This document shows positions 6,306 through 34,557 of a stretch of 64,000 nt of DNA, in pieces. The notes beneath the pieces were generated by a model. It saw only the letters and a program-made list of their open reading frames with translations. It did no database searches and was not told the origin of the DNA. The DNA is taken from NCBI GenBank assembly GCA_019638495.1, contig JAHBTQ010000002.1, positions 248,001 to 312,000 on the forward strand. Reading direction: 5' to 3'. The stretch is from Taibaiella sp. Lineage in GTDB: Bacteria; Bacteroidota; Bacteroidia; Chitinophagales; Chitinophagaceae. Both the position numbers and the translations under genes were made by a program. Numbering within the stretch: position 1 is the stretch's first letter; every line of letters begins with the position of its first letter.

Positions 6306-6980
6306 ATGAATTGGAATAACTATTTCAGCACTTCGATAGGCAAAAAAATCATAGTAGGCGCTACAGGTCTTTTCCTGGTGCTTTTCCTGGTGGTGCATGC
6401 CTATGTAAATGCAATGATCTTCTGGATGGACGGTGGAAAGCACTTTACGGAGGCTGCCGGGTTTATGGGCGGCAACGTTGCCGTGCGTATCCTGGAAATA
6501 GGCCTTTTTGCGTTTCTGATCCTGCACATGGTGCAGGGGCTTATGCTGGCATCGCAGAATGCCAAGCGCCGTACACAGCGCTACCAGGTAAGTGCCGGCA
6601 ATGCTACCAGCAAGTGGTATAGCCGCTCCATGGGCCTGCTGGGCACGCTTATCCTGTTGTTCCTTATCCTTCACCTTTTCCACTTCTGGGCGCCAAACCG
6701 TTATGGCCAGGCTTTTGACCCTCAATGGACAGAGGAAACACTCTACAACAAGATGCTGGAAGTATTCAGTCATCTATGGGTAGTGGTAGTGTATGTGCTG
6801 GGCTGCATATCGCTGGCATGGCACCTGATGCATGGCTTTTATAGCGGCTTCCAGACGTTTGGCCTGGCTACGCACAAGTACAAAGGTATTATCCGCTCCA
6901 TAGGCGTGGCATTCGCAATTATCGTTCCGGCGATATTTGCCAGCATGCCGGTGTACCTGCACATGATAAGCAACCACTAA
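6306..6980 (+). CDS. sdhC: Succinate dehydrogenase cytochrome b subunit (membrane anchor)
   Basis: 224 residues with five hydrophobic helices, the usual architecture of the single-chain, di-heme type B anchor of Bacteroidota SQR/fumarate reductase complexes. Conserved pieces include SIGKKIIVGATGLFLVLFLVVHA near the start, ILHMVQG, and ILHLFHFW, whose histidines are likely heme ligands. It anchors SdhAB in the inner membrane and passes electrons to quinone. First gene of the operon; sdhA follows after 77 nt. Confidence 0.93.
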   Translation: MNWNNYFSTSIGKKIIVGATGLFLVLFLVVHAYVNAMIFWMDGGKHFTEAAGFMGGNVAVRILEIGLFAFLILHMVQGLMLASQNAKRRTQRYQVSAGNATSKWYSRSMGLLGTLILLFLILHLFHFWAPNRYGQAFDPQWTEETLYNKMLEVFSHLWVVVVYVLGCISLAWHLMHGFYSGFQTFGLATHKYKGIIRSIGVAFAIIVPAIFASMPVYLHMISNH

Positions 6981-7057
6981 TAATGGGCGAGGGGAGGAAG
7001 CAGTGCTGCAGTTGCAGATGACAAACAATAACAACCTGATTATTTTATAGAATTGAT

Positions 7058-9034
7058 ATGGCGTTGAATTCTAAAATACCGGCAGGTCCTCTGGACCAGA
7101 AATGGGAAAAGTATAAATCTACCTGTAAGCTGGTGAATCCTGCCAACAAACGGCAGATAGAGATAATAGTAGTGGGTACCGGCCTGGCCGGCGCTTCGGC
7201 TGCTGCATCTCTGGGTGAGATGGGGTATAAGGTAAAGGCGTTCTGTTTTCAGGATAGCCCGCGCCGCGCTCACTCCATTGCCGCGCAGGGTGGCATCAAT
7301 GCTGCCAAGAACTATCAGAACGATGGTGACAGCACTTACCGCCTGTTTTACGATACTATTAAAGGTGGCGACTACCGTGCGCGCGAAGGCAATGTGCATC
7401 GCCTGGCAGAGGTAAGCGCAAATATCATTGACCAGTGTGTGGCACAGGGTGTTCCGTTTGCCCGCGAATATGGCGGCCTGCTGAGCAACCGTTCGTTCGG
7501 TGGCACGCAGGTGCAGCGTACCTTCTACGCTGCCGGCCAGACCGGCCAGCAGCTGCTGATAGGTGCCTACCAGGGGCTGGAGCGCCAGGTGGCATTGGGC
7601 ACTGTAACACAGTATAGTCGCCACGAAATGCTGGAAGTAGTGACCATAGACGGCAAGGCGCGTGGCATCATAGCCCGCAACCTGGTAACAGGTGAGCTGG
7701 AGCGTCACTTTGGCCATGCTGTGCTGCTGTGCACAGGTGGTTATGGCAACGTTTTCTACCTGTCTACAAACGCCATGGGCAGCAACGTTACTGCAGCATG
7801 GAAGGCACATAAGAAAGGAGCATTCTTCGGCAACCCTTGCTTCACACAGATACACCCTACCTGTATACCGGTAAGTGGCGATCACCAGTCTAAGCTGACG
7901 CTGATGTCTGAGTCGCTACGTAATGACGGCCGCATCTGGGTGCCTAAAAAGCAGGGTGACAACCGCAAGCCTACTGAAATACCTGAAGAAGAAAGGGATT
8001 ACTACCTGGAGCGCAGGTATCCTGCCTTTGGTAACCTGGTGCCTCGCGACGTGGCCAGCCGTGCTGCCAAGGAGCGTTGCGATGCGGGCTACGGTGTGGG
8101 CTCGTCTAAGATGGCCGTGTACCTGGACTTTGCATCTGCAATAGAGCGCTATGGCAAGGTCGAGGCCAACAAGCAGGGCAAGCACGATGCCAGCAAGGCA
8201 GAGATAATAAAGATGGGTAAGGAAGTGGTGAAAGAAAAATATGGCAACCTGTTTGACATGTATGCCAAGATCACCGGTGAGAACCCATATGAAGTGCCAA
8301 TGCGTATATATCCTGCGGTACACTACACAATGGGTGGCCTTTGGGTAGACTATGAATTGATGACGACGGTACCAAACCTGTATGCACTGGGCGAGGCCAA
8401 CTTCAGTGACCACGGTGCAAACCGCCTGGGTGCCTCTGCATTGATGCAGGGCCTGGCTGATGGCTACTTCGTAATACCGTATACATTAGGTAACTCAATG
8501 GCTGACGAGATCCGTACAAAGGCAATACCAACGGATCACCCTGCATTTGTGGCGGCTGAGAAAGAGGTGGCAGACCGTATAAACCGTCTCATGAGTATCA
8601 AGGGAACAGAAAGCGTAGAAAGTTTCCACAAGCGCCTCGGCAAGATAATGTGGGACAAGTGCGGTATGGGTCGTAATGCTGAGGGTCTGCGCCAGGCTAT
8701 CACAGAGATACAGCAACTGCGCAAAGAGTTCTGGAGCAATGTGCGTATACCCGGTGAGATCACTGGCTACAACCCTGAACTGGACAAAGCGGGCCGCGTG
8801 GCCGACTTCCTGGAGCTGGGTGAGCTGATGTGTATAGACGCGCTGGATCGCAACGAAAGCTGTGGTGGTCACTTCCGCGAGGAGTCACAAACTGAGGACG
8901 GCGAAGCGCTGCGCGACGACGAAAAGTACATGTACGTAGCAGCGTGGGAATACAAAGGCGAAAGCCAGTTTGAACTGCACAAAGAGGAGCTGAAGTATGA
9001 AGTAGTTCATCCGAGTGCGCGTAGCTATAAGTAA
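7058..9034 (+). CDS. sdhA: Succinate dehydrogenase/fumarate reductase flavoprotein subunit
   Basis: 658 residues. The FAD-binding Rossmann motif [18 protein letters not shown] lies at residues ~38-55. [14 protein letters not shown] carries the histidine that binds FAD covalently in this family. The substrate and capping region is [11 protein letters not shown], the catalytic-arginine block is [12 protein letters not shown], and FAD is also contacted by [20 protein letters not shown]. It oxidises succinate to fumarate in the TCA cycle, or the reverse in anaerobes. The length is typical of the Bacteroidota long form. In this family SdhB normally follows directly; here a 114-residue S23 gene intervenes. 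Confidence 0.97.
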
Positions 9035-28371: not shown

Positions 28372-28694
28372 TAACTTGTTTTTGTTGATCAGGCGGTTAT
28401 TGCTTTTGATAGGACGGGTATTCAGGCAAAGGTGTTAGAATTTTGCCGTTCGTGAATTTCCATGCTGCTAAATATTAGAGCGAGGAACAGAGCGAGAAAG
28501 AGGTAAAATAAGAGCGGGAGGGCATCGCTCTTCGCTCGCCGCTCCCGCTCTTATTTTTTGTGCCCCTAACTGACAAAACTTCGAACCAAATCAGACAATT
28601 TTTTCAGGAAATTTATCATCTCAGAAAATATACAGCTAAGACAACATGACAAATTATAAGTGGACAATTGGACATTCAGTAGAATAAATAGCAT
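28372..28694. other. Gap holding the left direct repeat of the metal island
   Basis: Apart from the repeat at 28475-28566 I see no gene. The last 130 bp before the P-type ATPase stop are A/T-rich and featureless. Confidence 0.6.
28475..28566. repeat. ~92-bp direct repeat, left end of metal island
   Basis: Matches 34387-34477 with about four differences, same orientation. It holds AGAGCGAGGAACAGAGCGAG and a long GAGCGGGAG/CTCCCGCTC hairpin, and ends TTTTTTGTGCCCC, whose last six bases equal the 3' edge of tRNA-Leu at the other copy. Candidate attachment or recombination site. Confidence 0.85.
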
Positions 28695-30668
28695 TTATTT
28701 AAACGCCATTCGTTGGATGCGTATTGCATTTAGAATGGCGAGAAACGCCACTCCAACATCTGCAAAAACCGCCTCCCACATAGTCGCTATTCCCCATGCT
28801 CCAAGTATCATAACGATTGCTTTAACTCCAAAAGCTAAAGCGATGTTTTGCCAAACTACTTTTTTTGTCGCCTTTCCAATTTTGATAGCTGTAGCTATTT
28901 TTGAGGGCTGATCCGTTTGTATAATAACATCTGCCGTCTCAATTGCGGCATCGCTGCCAAGTCCCCCCATTGCAATCCCTACATGACTTAATGCGAGTAC
29001 GGGAGCATCATTAATACCATCGCCTACAAATGCAACCTTTCGTCCTTTTTCCCTTATTATTTCTTCTACCTTTTCTACTTTCTGTTCAGGTAATAAATCT
29101 CCAAATGCATGTGCGATACCTATATCCTTTGCTACCTTTTCAGCAACCGCAGATTTGTCACCCGATAACATGATTGTATATTCTATGCCTAAATTACGTA
29201 ATGAGCTTATTGCTTCTTTGGCATCATCCTTTATCTCATCTGCAATGGTAAAAAAGCCAGCATATTTTTTATCTATTGACACTAACACTACAGTTTCCGT
29301 AATATCTTCAACAGACTTGTCAAATTCGATATTGAATTTTTTCAGCAGTTTCAGATTTCCAACTAATACGTCTCTGCCGTCCACTACGCCTTTTAATCCA
29401 TGCCCGGCAATTTCCTCCACATGCGTTACATTCCGGCTTTTATATGATACATTTTTGCTGTCTGCGTAGTCTCTGACGGCTGTAGCAGTTGGGTGTGTAC
29501 TTTTCGTTTCTATTGCAGCGGCAACACCTGTAAGCTCATCTTCCCCAATAATGTTCGTTGTAATACTCTGCACTTTGAATACCCCCTTTGTCAGCGTACC
29601 CGTTTTATCCATTACTACGGTATTTATCTCTGTCATTAAATCAAGATAACTTGATCCTTTGAACAAAATCCCGTTTCGTGAAGCTGCTCCAATGCCTCCA
29701 AAATATCCAAGAGGTATAGAAACAACCAATGCACAAGGACATGATATGACGAGGAAAATAAGTGCTCGATATAACCATTCGCTAAAAACATAGTTTTCTT
29801 TAAAAAAGTATGGTAAAAATGTGAGAAACAGCGCAAGTAATACTACAATTGGAGTGTAGAAACGTGCAAATTTTCGAATGAACAGTTCTGTAGGTGCTTT
29901 ACGTCCTGATGCATGTTCAACCAAATATAGGATGCGGGAAATAGAACTGTCAGAGAACTTTTTACTCACCTCAATATCGACGACCTTATCTATGTTGATC
30001 ATTCCTGCCAAAACTGTTTCTCCTTTCCTGTATGTTTTAGGTCGGCTTTCTCCAGTTAGCGCCGAAGTATTAAAGGAGCTTGCTTCGCTGACAAGCATTC
30101 CATCAAGAGGTACTTTTTCTCCTGGCTTAACCTGTATTTTCTCTCCTATTTGTACCGTATCTGGAGAAATTTGCGCAAAAGTGCCGTTACGCGATACTGT
30201 CGCTGTATCAGGGCGAACGTCAAGCAACGCTTTAATATTTCGTTTTGCTCTGTTTACTGCCATTTCTTGAAATAATTCGCCAACCGAGTAGAACAACATA
30301 ACAGCCACGCCCTCCGGAAATTCTTTGATAGCGAATGCGCCCAACGTTGCAATACTCATTAAAAGAAATTCTGTAAATATTTCGCCTTTTCCTATCAGTT
30401 TTAAAGCTTTGCTTAAAACTGGCAACCCAACAGGTATGTATGCGACTATATACCAAATTGCTCGCAACCATTCGGTAAAAAAAACTGGTTTGGAAAAAAA
30501 GTCGAACAAAAGTCCGGTCATTAGTAAAAGGAAGCTAACGCTTGCCGGACCGTATCTGCTAAAGAAACCGGATTTCGGCTTGTCTTTCACGGTTTTATCA
30601 GTTTGTGCAATATGAGTGCTACAGCACTCGTTCGCTGCCGTATCGCTGTCATTCTTTATTTCACTCAT
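28695..30668 (-). CDS. P1B-type heavy-metal ATPase (Zn/Cd/Pb class)
   Basis: 657 residues. The actuator TGES is in SALTGESRPK, the CPC metal motif is in VISCPCALVVSIPLG, and the phosphorylation site is MDKTGTLTKG. An HP motif (KSTHPTATAV), MLSGDK and VGDGINDAPVLA complete the ATP domain. The last helix reads FADVGVAFLAILNAI, the D/G pair of the P1B-2 group, which exports zinc, cadmium or lead. There is no N-terminal HMA domain; only a CC pair (ANECCSTH). Inner membrane. Last gene of a minus-strand operon. Confidence 0.93.
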   Translation of the reverse strand: MSEIKNDSDTAANECCSTHIAQTDKTVKDKPKSGFFSRYGPASVSFLLLMTGLLFDFFSKPVFFTEWLRAIWYIVAYIPVGLPVLSKALKLIGKGEIFTEFLLMSIATLGAFAIKEFPEGVAVMLFYSVGELFQEMAVNRAKRNIKALLDVRPDTATVSRNGTFAQISPDTVQIGEKIQVKPGEKVPLDGMLVSEASSFNTSALTGESRPKTYRKGETVLAGMINIDKVVDIEVSKKFSDSSISRILYLVEHASGRKAPTELFIRKFARFYTPIVVLLALFLTFLPYFFKENYVFSEWLYRALIFLVISCPCALVVSIPLGYFGGIGAASRNGILFKGSSYLDLMTEINTVVMDKTGTLTKGVFKVQSITTNIIGEDELTGVAAAIETKSTHPTATAVRDYADSKNVSYKSRNVTHVEEIAGHGLKGVVDGRDVLVGNLKLLKKFNIEFDKSVEDITETVVLVSIDKKYAGFFTIADEIKDDAKEAISSLRNLGIEYTIMLSGDKSAVAEKVAKDIGIAHAFGDLLPEQKVEKVEEIIREKGRKVAFVGDGINDAPVLALSHVGIAMGGLGSDAAIETADVIIQTDQPSKIATAIKIGKATKKVVWQNIALAFGVKAIVMILGAWGIATMWEAVFADVGVAFLAILNAIRIQRMAFK

Positions 30669-30680
30669 GGGTTACATTAT

Positions 30681-31301
30681 TTAATTATAGAAAAATGAGA
30701 GTATGCCGGTTCCCACCAATATACTTCCCGTTATTATGCCTGAATTATGTTCAAGTCTATGCCAATTAAGTTTCATCATACCCATATACCCAAGCCTTAC
30801 CCAAATAGCAATGCCACTAATTGTTGTAATGGCATAAACCAAAATAAGTAACATTACCAATGGCCAACCGTAGCTTCCTGCCATAAAAAAATACGCTTCG
30901 ATTTCAAGACATGGTGATAGGAACATAATTATGACCAGAGCTGCTATTATTTTACTGCGAGACTGATGTGTATCTACCTGCCCATGCAAATGGAAATGCT
31001 TATGTATATAGTGCCTGTAAATCAAAACGCTTCCCAAAATTACCATCAATACTGCCGACACAACATGAAAGTATGTTTCCCATTGTTCGTGTGTTTTAAG
31101 TCCGATGACTGCCAACAATAAGCCTATTACTATGGTGCTCATCGCGTGTGCAGCTCCACACCATACGGCTACTTTAGTTACCTGCGCTATATTCCATTGT
31201 TCCTTTCGACCAATGGCAATTATTGGAAGCCAATGATTAGGGATTAGACCATGTAACAAACTCAATAATATTGTCGCAGTAATGATAACTTCTCGTGTCA
31301 T
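30681..31301 (-). CDS. NicO/RcnA-like multi-pass metal membrane protein
   Basis: 206 residues, six hydrophobic helices. A histidine-rich loop (HYIHKHFHLHGQVDTH, about residues 100-116) and the helix motifs LLHGLIPNHWLPI and CGAAHAMSTIVIGLL resemble the nickel/cobalt NicO-RcnA and related LysE-fold exporters. It lies 12 nt before the P-type ATPase in an operon, so metal transport is likely; the metal is not determined. Family call is tentative. Confidence 0.65.
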   Translation of the reverse strand: MTREVIITATILLSLLHGLIPNHWLPIIAIGRKEQWNIAQVTKVAVWCGAAHAMSTIVIGLLLAVIGLKTHEQWETYFHVVSAVLMVILGSVLIYRHYIHKHFHLHGQVDTHQSRSKIIAALVIIMFLSPCLEIEAYFFMAGSYGWPLVMLLILVYAITTISGIAIWVRLGYMGMMKLNWHRLEHNSGIITGSILVGTGILSFFYN

Positions 31302-31321
31302 GGTTAGCGTTGCTTGAATTA

Positions 31322-33490
31322 TTAAATCCGAATTTTCAACCCGCCATTTATTACGAAGCCGTCCAATGGAGCATAAATCTCTCTAAATTGAGGGTTGTTC
31401 AATGCTCCTGTATAAATAGTATCGAAACGTGTTTGCCGTGCGTCCAAGAAGTTTTCGAAATTGATATATAGAGAGAATTTTTTCCATGATTTCTCAGCCA
31501 TAAATCCCATAATCCAATAGTCCTTGCCTGTCGTCCCATCGCTAAGGCGTTGCGGGGAAAAATAGTATGCCTCTAACCCCACCTTCCATTTGTCTTCTAC
31601 CTCATACATGACCACAGAGTTTATCCTGTGCTTTGGTGTCAATGGATTTTCTGTTTTCAGCCCGTTTAGATGTAAGTATGCGTCAGTATAAGTGTACCCG
31701 ATAAACACGTGAAAATCCTTGTAACCAAGCTTTATATTAGTTTCCGTTCCCTTGCTATCCATGTGACCATTGATATTGCTGAATCGGTATTTACCTGCTG
31801 TTGGTATGAGTGTAAGGGGATTGTTTAAATGCGTATAGTAAAATAGATGGTTAATACTAAAGGTAATGCTATGGTCCGCAAAGCTTGTTCGGTAGTTTAT
31901 ATCCCAATTTGCACCGTAGCTTTTTTCTAACTTGTTACTGTCGGCACTAATAGCAAGCACATTTTGGTATTGAATACGCTCACTTTCTTCTGTAAAAATT
32001 GTCGGTGCCTTATAGCCTAATCCGCCACCCAGCCGAGAGCTTATTTTCAAATTTGGCTTATAAAGAACCGAGACACGCGGTAAAAATGCAAACCCGTAGT
32101 TTATTACATAATCCTCCCTTATACCGCTTTCAACTATTAGTTTTTCATGAACCTTCCACGTATTTTGTATGAATGCACCAAATGTTGTTTGCACATAATT
32201 GCGCACAGGTACATTCGTAACTTTAAGTTCTTTAAATCCATCAGTCCATAAATTTAACCCACCAATCCACTCCAATTTTTCATTGCCAGTTGCGTAATTG
32301 AGTTCTGTAAATGTACTATGCTGTATTCCGTCAAATTTATAACCTGGAATAGTGATTCCTCTGTCAAAGTAGCTATAACTGTTTTTTAGCGTTAACTTAC
32401 TATGCTCTGTCACTGTATGACTTAGTGATAGTTGTGTGCTAAACCGTTTCGTCACATTTTGTTCATAATAACTGTTTGAAGTGTCATAGTTGCCTTTGAT
32501 ATAAGGCATACTGCCCCCGATCCTATTCTCCCATGTAGTATTAATTCCTAAAATGACAGTTGTTTTCTGTGTAGGGTATAAGAAAAGCTTCGGATTAAAT
32601 GTATAGCGTTCAAATTTTGGAATAGCAGAAAGCCCGATATTGGCAGGGTCATAAGCAAAGTTGCTATTTCTTGAAGCGAAAAGAGTAGTTCCAATTTTAC
32701 CAAAACGTTGCCCATAATAACCGTTTATATCCAGTCCTCCGGCACTGGTACCATTAACGTGAAAACGAATTTCCCTTATTGTAGAAGGTGTCTTAGATAT
32801 GAGATTTACCAGGCCTGCTATCGCCCCGCCACCAAAAAGTGTGGAAGAAGAGCCTTTAATTACCTCAACCTGCTTTAAATCTAATGGTGGTGTTTGCAAT
32901 AGCCCTAAACCGCTTGCTGCCCCTGAATAGAGGGGGAAACCATCTTTTAATATCTGTGTATAACGCCCGTCCATACCTTGAATACGAATAGAGGCGTTTG
33001 CCGAGGTGGCAGAAGTCTGTTGTGTCTGAATACCTGTGCTTTCTGCAAGCAACATCCGTATATCACCCGGCTTCATATTTCCTTTTTCCTCCAGTTCTTC
33101 CCCTGAAATTAGCTCTATTCGTGTCGGAACGTCACTTATTGTGCGGGTGCTGCGAGTGGAATTTACGGTTATAGCCTCCAACTCTTCGCCTTCAGAACGT
33201 TCCATATACACAACAATAGAATCTCTGCTATTCAAAGGAAAAGTAAGTGAATCTATGTGTTCATTATAACCTAAATATTTGCAGGAGACTATTTGTTGCC
33301 CAGTCGGAATGTTAGAAAGTATTACGATGCCATCTGCATCGGAACTGCCTCCAAAAGACGTCCCTTCGACATGAACTATTGCACCAATTATTGGTTCTTT
33401 ATTATTCTTGTCCTTAACTACTATTACTGTAGTAGTTTGGCTATATGCATTACATGATATAGCTATTAAAGCCAGCAATAAATACTTCAT
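31322..33490 (-). CDS. TonB-dependent outer-membrane receptor of the metal operon
   Basis: 722 residues. After the signal peptide, residues ~20-105 form a carboxypeptidase-regulatory-like domain (KNNKEPIIGAIVHVEG). A plug domain follows (ISDVPTRIELISGEEL, VIKGSSSTLFGGGAIAGLVN), then a 22-strand-type barrel rich in aromatic residues ending in FVINGGLKIRI. These proteins import metal complexes across the outer membrane using TonB. An importer in an efflux operon is common in Bacteroidota metal loci. Spacing is 20 nt to the next gene and 51 nt from the previous. Confidence 0.93.
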   Translation of the reverse strand: MKYLLLALIAISCNAYSQTTTVIVVKDKNNKEPIIGAIVHVEGTSFGGSSDADGIVILSNIPTGQQIVSCKYLGYNEHIDSLTFPLNSRDSIVVYMERSEGEELEAITVNSTRSTRTISDVPTRIELISGEELEEKGNMKPGDIRMLLAESTGIQTQQTSATSANASIRIQGMDGRYTQILKDGFPLYSGAASGLGLLQTPPLDLKQVEVIKGSSSTLFGGGAIAGLVNLISKTPSTIREIRFHVNGTSAGGLDINGYYGQRFGKIGTTLFASRNSNFAYDPANIGLSAIPKFERYTFNPKLFLYPTQKTTVILGINTTWENRIGGSMPYIKGNYDTSNSYYEQNVTKRFSTQLSLSHTVTEHSKLTLKNSYSYFDRGITIPGYKFDGIQHSTFTELNYATGNEKLEWIGGLNLWTDGFKELKVTNVPVRNYVQTTFGAFIQNTWKVHEKLIVESGIREDYVINYGFAFLPRVSVLYKPNLKISSRLGGGLGYKAPTIFTEESERIQYQNVLAISADSNKLEKSYGANWDINYRTSFADHSITFSINHLFYYTHLNNPLTLIPTAGKYRFSNINGHMDSKGTETNIKLGYKDFHVFIGYTYTDAYLHLNGLKTENPLTPKHRINSVVMYEVEDKWKVGLEAYYFSPQRLSDGTTGKDYWIMGFMAEKSWKKFSLYINFENFLDARQTRFDTIYTGALNNPQFREIYAPLDGFVINGGLKIRI

Positions 33491-33541
33491 ATTTACCTGT
33501 TTAACTGTAAAAAATAAATGAAAAAATGTGTAGCGAAAAAG

Positions 33542-33853
33542 CTAAACAGGTTTTGGAGGCTGGAATATATCAATAGCTATTCCCTTGACTAAGGAAGATT
33601 GATATGTAGGTTTCGGCTTACAAAGAACCGTAATAATACAGCCTCGTTCCGGTAACGAAATTCTGGAGATAGAAATATTATTATGACAACATGAGCAAAT
33701 ACAAAAAGGAGTGCATTTCTTCTTATTATGTTCATGAAGCGGCGTTTCGTTCTTTACAAGCTCTTTCAATTCATCGCAATCTCCGGCATCAGCACATGGC
33801 ATTATGCTAAGGAGTAATATGTAGATACTTAATATGAGTGTTAGAATTTTCAA
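33542..33853 (-). CDS. DUF6660-like small secreted protein of the metal operon
   Basis: 103 residues from a TTG at 33853 (no ATG fits). A signal helix (MKILTLILSIYILLLSIMPC) is followed by ADAGDCDE and a cysteine/histidine-rich stretch (LHEHNKKKCTPFCICSCCHN), then a proline end (FQPPKPV). This is the usual layout of DUF6660, found at the head of Bacteroidota metal-efflux operons. The Cys/His cluster could bind the metal or sense it. A TATCTTTG box ends 5 nt upstream. Confidence 0.7.
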   Translation of the reverse strand: MKILTLILSIYILLLSIMPCADAGDCDELKELVKNETPLHEHNKKKCTPFCICSCCHNNISISRISLPERGCIITVLCKPKPTYQSSLVKGIAIDIFQPPKPV

Positions 33854-33858
33854 CGCTG

Positions 33859-33866
33859 CAAAGATA
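33859..33866 (-). promoter_or_regulatory. -7 box TATCTTTG of the metal-island operon
   Basis: The reverse complement of CAAAGATA, 5 nt upstream of the TTG start. It gives a nearly leaderless operon transcript. Confidence 0.5.
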
Positions 33867-33954
33867 GTGATTAGTAACTGGCAATAAAAAAAGCCAGCCT
33901 GAAAACAGACCAGCCCCTATAAACCCTATCACCATGAAAACAATATAAATGTAC

Positions 33955-34386
33955 CTAAAATATCCGCATTTCACCTCCAGCATTAAATCTGCCGTATTGA
34001 ACCGCTTTTCCCTTTTCCGGCAGTTCAACCACGCTATCTACATCATGCTGGAATGTATTTGCCCCTCTGAATTTACCCTCCTTTGTGGTCTGGAAGATGA
34101 AAACAAATGACTTATCCGGGTACATAGCCTTTAGCTTGTTCAAATCCTCCGGTTTCAATCCCAAGCGGTTAACACTATCCAGAAAGATGAAATCATAAAA
34201 GGTCAGGCTTGCAGGTATGTTTGCGGCAACGTACAAGTTTGGATGTTTGACCTCCTTATCGTTCAACTTATCCTGTAGCGTTTTGTCCAGCCCTTCTTCC
34301 CTTGCAACGTATAATACCTTTCCGTGGTTACGAGCCAGGTAGCCAGCGAAATCAACGCACAAGTATCACTTACTCCAACATTCTTT
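33955..34386 (-). pseudogene. Remnant of a RecA/DnaB-fold ATPase, cut at Walker A
   Basis: The 135-codon frame (33955-34362) reads CVDFAGYLARNHGKVLYVA and the Walker B-like FYDFIFLDSVNRLGL, the C-terminal part of a RecA-fold ATPase such as those on plasmids and phages. The ATP-binding loop should lie just before it. Upstream of the first codon is a stop in frame, and in the next frame NVGVSDT precedes the point where a 1-nt shift would restore TLCVDF; the K of a GKT loop is gone. The island's right direct repeat cuts the gene right there. It is a frameshifted, truncated remnant. Confidence 0.7.
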
Positions 34387-34477
34387 TTAGAGCGAGGAAC
34401 AGAGCGAGAAAGCGGTAAAATAAGAGCGGGAGGGCATCGTTCTTCGCTCGCCGCTCCCGCTCTCATTTTTGTGCCCC
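34387..34477. repeat. ~92-bp direct repeat, right end of metal island, abutting tRNA-Leu
   Basis: Copy of 28475-28566 in the same orientation. It ends TTTTTGTGCCCC, overlapping the 3' end of the minus-strand tRNA-Leu by about six bases. It contains the GAGCGGGAG/CTCCCGCTC hairpin and may serve as terminator of the tRNA. Confidence 0.85.
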
Positions 34478-34557
34478 AGACGGGAATCGAACCCGTACTC
34501 GCCTTGCGGCAAACAGGATTTTAAGTCCTGCGCGTCTACCTATTCCGCCACCAGGGC
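34472..34557 (-). tRNA. tRNA-Leu (anticodon UAA)
   Basis: 86 nt. The acceptor strands GCCCTGG/CTGGGGC pair with two wobbles. The anticodon arm CAGGA-CTTAAAA-TCCTG gives UAA. A class II variable arm (TTTGCCGCAAGGCGAGTAC region) and the T arm GGGTTCGATTCCC are present. CCA is not encoded. Its 3' end abuts the right repeat of the metal island. Confidence 0.95.

Follow-up and report, generated by a model that had tools for sequence, protein, structure and literature searches.

Anatomy of the island at tRNA-Leu(UAA)

The window, i.e. the whole stretch of 64,000 nucleotides of Taibaiella sp. DNA analysed here, holds an island of 5.9 kb enclosed between two terminator hairpins beside a tRNA-Leu(UAA) gene (Table 1). 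All enclosed genes are on the minus strand, as is tRNA-Leu, and read on that strand they follow one another as AAA ATPase fragment, DUF6660 protein, TonB-dependent receptor, NicO-like protein and P1B ATPase. The first-pass annotation had described the enclosed genes as A/T-rich and free of any integrase. Both remarks hold, with a GC content of 0.38-0.41 inside compared to mostly 0.45-0.50 outside, and with no integrase found within the island. Its assignments of the P1B ATPase, the TonB-dependent receptor and the DUF6660 protein are likewise sound, while that of the NicO-like protein is weak. The top homologues of the TonB-dependent receptor in the genus reach 58-61%, and none of them is located at tRNA-Leu. 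A fifth ORF, absent from the earlier list (33955-34362), represents the C-terminal end of an AAA ATPase of ~490 aa. It shares 99% aa identity (87.6% at the nt level) with the 488-491-aa AAA ATPase of the related genome G006, and the homology ends at 34373, 14 nt short of the right terminator.

Table 1. Features of the island and its boundaries in the window
Feature	Position	Strand	Evidence or remark
Left terminator hairpin T1 (left copy of the 92-bp repeat minus core)	28475..28559	.	96% to T2; fold -36.4 kcal/mol
Left 7-bp core GTGCCCC	28560..28566	+	Identical to 34471-34477; common to genus sites
Putative attP-type half-site (P'): TAACTGACAAAACT, then TCGAACC (28581-28587), then conserved tail	28567..28625	+	Profile matches, spacing
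P1B heavy-metal ATPase, cargo	28695..30668	-	TIGR01525 548 bits, cut-off 346
NicO-like (RcnA-like) membrane protein, cargo, weak assignment	30681..31301	-	NF007454 E 6e-4; no Pfam match
TonB-dependent receptor, cargo	31322..33490	-	Plug and CarbopepD_reg_2 domains
DUF6660 protein, cargo	33542..33853	-	PF20365 E 4.5e-10
Short stretch common to ATPase-bearing islands, terminator-like	33887..33941	-	98% in G012 (L069), 94.5% in G015 (L071)
Mobile-element AAA ATPase gene, 3' fragment, 5' end truncated by the right repeat	33955..34373	-	G006 homology
Right terminator hairpin T2, terminator of tRNA-Leu	34387..34470	.	Fold -33.3 kcal/mol
Core GTGCCCC at tRNA 3' end	34471..34477	+	ARAGORN; identity to left core
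tRNA-Leu(UAA), putative integration target (attB-type half-site)	34471..34557	-	ARAGORN; TCGAACC 34487-34493, 9 nt from core

Segments 28475-28558 and 34387-34470 form an ungapped direct repeat of 84 nt with 96% identity. Together with the adjoining GTGCCCC, the repeat comprises 92 nt at 95.7% (28475-28566 and 34387-34477), in line with the ~92 bp and ~96% initially judged by eye, and the overlap with the tRNA-Leu 3' end, read as six bases, is 6-7 nt according to ARAGORN. No other direct-repeat family of at least 25 nt was detected within 26-38 kb of the window. In the whole genome, two near-identical copies of the 92-nt repeat are accompanied by one copy of 76% and one 26-nt match.

The repeat is composed of a terminator hairpin (84-85 nt, with flanking A/T runs) followed by GTGCCCC, which corresponds to the last 6-7 nt of tRNA-Leu(UAA). 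The 84-85-nt part is the terminator of tRNA-Leu (T2) and its left copy (T1). GTGCCCC is the only sequence common to both island boundaries, and the 92-bp repeat, previously considered to bound the island, is not the attachment core. Among 15 compared tRNA-side islands, terminators of the two ends are clearly alike (72-98%) in six. Conspecific transfer, gene conversion, or repeated reuse of one terminator would all fit the likeness of the two terminators.

A dispersed half-site and its arrays in the genus

Directly inside the left core lies TAACTGACAAAACTTCGAACCAAAT, and the left end of the island as a whole carries a dispersed site of the form GTGCCCC-TAACNGACAAAACT-TCGAACC. A pattern search with up to 3 mismatches disclosed 27 copies of this site in 14 of 35 genomes of the genus, and 0 in the backwards control. 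The comparison genomes are mostly draft MAGs, and a profile built from 30 copies gave strong matches in most of the better ones. The half-site in the window matches the profile with an E-value of 7e-18, and model R1 with 70.6 bits (E 2.7e-19). The same profile, applied to 248 genomes of the order, matched in two, the window's own and a weak one. Matches to model positions 27-73 (E ~0.002), seen in many genomes with nearly the same bit score, were regarded as shared unrelated sequence.

In addition, an exact pattern search through ~85,000 species returned 22 stretches, all in Flavipsychrobacter-type Bacteroidota. They are labelled as Flavipsychrobacter, Taibaiella, Chitinophagaceae, Sphingobacteriales or uncultured Bacteroidetes, and include F. 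stenotrophus RB1R16. The site was not found in viral contigs (IMG/VR). To the left of the core, the P half, which would be expected to relate to P' as an inverted repeat, is made of variable terminator sequence.

Sites form direct arrays in which they are spaced by 0.6-3.6 kb. As an illustration, four sites are found in G013:C150, and three in each of G009:C32 and G007:C142. Anchors within reach are tRNA-Leu genes (UAA, CAA or CAG) or degenerate tRNA-Leu ends, and they always follow on the right when the site is read in its own orientation. A few left-hand anchors appeared in a loose scan and were dismissed as single chance matches to the degenerate pattern. Contents of the units are unrelated, and include YCII with an ECF sigma factor, guanylate/adenylate cyclase, 23S rRNA IVP, Sel1, DUF4272 and others. 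By crude ORF calls, 36 of the 52 genes that come first on the right of a site are oriented toward it (p = 0.008). A motif scan detected no recombinase within site-bounded arrays, except for the classical islands that flank them, and the genome G013 holds about nine clear sites yet no close integrase. These arrays are suggestive of small integrase-less gene cassettes brought to tRNA-Leu by a serine integrase encoded elsewhere.

Motif spacing, exchange at GTGCCCC and candidate recombinases

We have also addressed the distance between the core and the TCGAACC motif. Searching the genus for GTGCNCC-N(4-24)-TCGAACC gave 97 matches, counted as genomic copies and not as independent events; spacing is 9 in 40 of them, nearly all tRNA-Leu-type ends, and 14 in another 40, nearly all sites, while any other spacing is represented by at most four matches. 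The half-site in the window, with 14 nt, has the same spacing as the second class, in which at least two sequence types, TAACNGACAAAACT and AGACGGGAARGTTA, can be distinguished. In large serine integrases, the distance from the crossover to the zinc-ribbon motif is 5 bp shorter in attB than in attP (PMC3783163), and here the motif is likewise 5 bp farther from the crossover in the element-side than in the attB half-site. As the difference between the 14-nt and 9-nt spacings equals the published 5-bp shift, the sites resemble attP-type half-sites and the T-arm of the tRNA resembles the attB half-site, the crossover apparently falling inside GTGCCCC. The two spacings point to a large serine integrase. 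A search of tRNA-Arg ends, performed as an independent check of the 5-bp shift, yielded only one convincing case, at G026:C66:26787-26814; the T-arm motif of this tRNA-Arg-like end is shifted by 5 bp, and the genome concerned also has a serine recombinase at tRNA-Arg(CCG).

Comparisons between species place exchange junctions at GTGCCCC. The tRNA-Leu of G034 and a site of G021 are identical in 70 of 70 nt to the left of GTGC(C/A)CC and unrelated to the right of it. Two sites, with the sequence GTGCCCCAGAC(G/A)GACAAAACTTCGAACC, resemble the tRNA in their left part and the other sites in their right part. A homologous block in G011 and G006 starts at the core (87.7% over 1507 nt, as opposed to 69.5% in a linked core gene), and so does a block in G017 and G009 (71%). 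The unit with YCII and the sigma factor, 94% identical over 1782 nt, lies at tRNA-Leu UAA in G017 and inside an array at another anchor in G009, and its homologous block ends 140-210 nt before the cores at both ends. Overall, species with 69-78% identity in the linked core gene share blocks of 88-94% identity.

Candidate enzymes are serine recombinases of ~520 aa with resolvase, recombinase and zinc-ribbon domains. In G006 and G014 their genes overlap tRNA-Leu(UAA) at its 3' end, and in G017 and G034 they do so with tRNA-Leu(CAA); these four genomes carry related islands with an integrase at the same target. Related serine recombinases reside at tRNA-Arg(CCG), tmRNA-like and tRNA-Leu(CAG) ends. 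Integrase copies of G006, G009, G017 and G034 share 91-97% DNA identity, while a linked CcmB-like gene shows 69-78% between species, indicating recent movement of the integrases. In the genome of the window no close serine integrase was found, its homologues reaching only 27%.

In G006, ~37 kb separate tRNA-Leu from the first site, and this segment contains both the serine integrase and the ATPase family of the fragment in the window. This island is the only well-resolved case in which an integrase and the type-1 site are joined; G009:C8 is less clear. The element core of relatives is ordered as ATPase, helicase, many small genes and serine integrase at the tRNA, with variable cargo after the ATPase, and the distance from the ATPase to a 14-nt-type site is 4-5 kb in G020 and G012. 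At L071 (13744-18420), a 1558-aa strawberry-notch-type helicase is adjacent to the AAA ATPase, a conserved pair in such islands. Conjugation genes were not identified in the serine-recombinase island, which for this reason we do not call an ICE.

The tRNA-Leu(UAA) gene is also occupied by islands of another kind. Duplications of 59-61 nt of the tRNA-Leu 3' end flank tyrosine-integrase islands at L025 (7571-12311) and L026 (7255-11433). The gene is therefore a hotspot for recombinases of two types, tyrosine and serine. In one relative (L044 7426-8220, G027:C21), a group I intron of 707 nt splits tRNA-Leu(UAA); it matches RF00028 with 53.2 bits, which exceeds the gathering score. To our knowledge, a group I intron in tRNA-Leu(UAA) is unexpected in Bacteroidota.

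Proposed origin of the island and comparison with known systems

In our reading, the island is probably a deletion remnant, or cassette, that goes back to a large-serine-integrase island inserted into tRNA-Leu(UAA) at its 3' end. It is unlikely that it derives instead from a tyrosine-recombinase IME or CIME with a classical tRNA 3'-end repeat and a lost integrase. Tyrosine integrases do adjoin tRNA-Leu(UAA) in G008, where a weak site is present 12.6 kb from the integrase, and in G025, and classical duplications of 59-61 nt surround integrase islands in G011 and G020. However, classical repeats reach from the anticodon loop as far as the 3' end of the tRNA. Here only 6-7 nt of the tRNA are shared, with no tRNA 3' segment rebuilt by a repeat with an internal crossover. 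Moreover, a motif displaced by 5 bp is expected of serine and not of tyrosine integrases.

Lower still is the probability that dispersed terminator repeats gave rise to the repeat pair through homologous recombination or gene conversion, without any site-specific integration. The first-pass annotation had offered recombination between the repeats as one option, and T1 and T2, about 95-96% alike, belong to a terminator family with several copies in G009 and six in tandem at L083. Nevertheless, such recombination leaves the conserved half-site, the one-sided tRNA anchoring and the 9/14-nt spacing unaccounted for, and the two ends are clearly alike in only the six islands mentioned above. The concern that the repeat could be an abundant dispersed element applies to the terminator family in the genus, but not to the window's own genome, in which the family is nearly absent elsewhere. 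At L083, a tyrosine integrase gene (6928-7977, minus strand) adjoins a degenerate tRNA-Leu end and has the tandem repeats (8166-8739) upstream of it. A chromosomal integron-like array with attC sites is highly improbable. It would agree with the small cassettes, the direct tandem sites and the tendency of the neighbouring gene to have its end facing the site, but the 30 aligned site copies have 0 predicted pairs and, lacking a conserved fold, are not attC. No palindromic partner box was seen, nor, in scans not aimed at it, an integron integrase.

Returning to the serine-integrase origin, the window follows the order found in relatives, with site, cargo and the ATPase end, and then jumps to the tRNA; the simplest account would be insertion followed by loss of the element core. 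An attP circle would have joined attB (T-GTGCCCC-tRNA T-arm) through exchange within GTGCCCC, creating a left junction T1-GTGCCCC-P' with the attP-type half-site and a right junction T2-GTGCCCC-B' with the tRNA. The element core between the ATPase and T2 would have been lost later, while the metal cargo and the left end stayed in place. The cognate integrase and the deletion are what we infer here, as is mobility: excision or movement in trans could take place if a matching integrase and a directionality factor entered the cell. Since the island has no integrase and the close family is absent from the genome, it is regarded as a remnant or cassette and not as an autonomous member. No empty site was found, and no relative examined has the left flank gene next to tRNA-Leu. 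The first-pass annotation had already suggested a decayed, possibly trans-mobilised element at tRNA-Leu. This part of its interpretation is supported by the recurring attachment-type site on the left and by the right end that truncates a gene of a mobile-element family.

By analogy, the island appears to be a variant of known tRNA/tmRNA-targeted serine-recombinase islands, the closest being the ssrA-specific islands of Dehalococcoides, which have the serine recombinase DsiB and of which 15 of 31 have no integration module (PMC3146451). Common to both are a serine recombinase overlapping the 3' end of a tRNA-like gene and downstream tandem islands bounded by short end repeats with an adjacent conserved motif. 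The genus studied here, in Bacteroidota, differs in using several tRNA-Leu genes as targets, in units that can be <1 kb, in a conserved half-site of ~60 nt with the motif displaced by 5 bp, and in terminators that adjoin the core. SCC and cis-mobilisable elements (CIMEs) are similar as islands that keep attachment sites without an integrase, but they differ in target and recombinase, and trans mobilisation of the island described here is hypothetical. Tycheposons are likewise tRNA-anchored cargo islands, of freshwater and marine bacteria; they were described with tyrosine recombinases (XerD; PMC10872708), unlike the serine candidate here. Chromosomal integrons are comparable in their arrays of small cassettes, each ending in a recombination site, but here the site has no attC-like fold, the anchor is a tRNA and the candidate enzyme is a serine integrase.

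Tentatively, and with more doubt than confidence, the genus might possess a serine-integrase counterpart of the integron, in the form of open-ended arrays of integrase-less cassettes with one or a few genes at several tRNA-Leu genes; integrases encoded by co-resident islands would act in trans to acquire these cassettes and shuffle them from species to species. The sites and tRNA ends described here make up a natural, sequence-readable catalogue of serine-integrase half-sites from both sides of the reaction, ~40 each, in which the 5-bp attP/attB rule derived from crystallography becomes visible in genomes. If small cassettes indeed move in trans, serine integrases, and not integrons alone, would support cassette arrays, and such arrays would spread niche genes, here those for metal efflux, in freshwater Bacteroidota.
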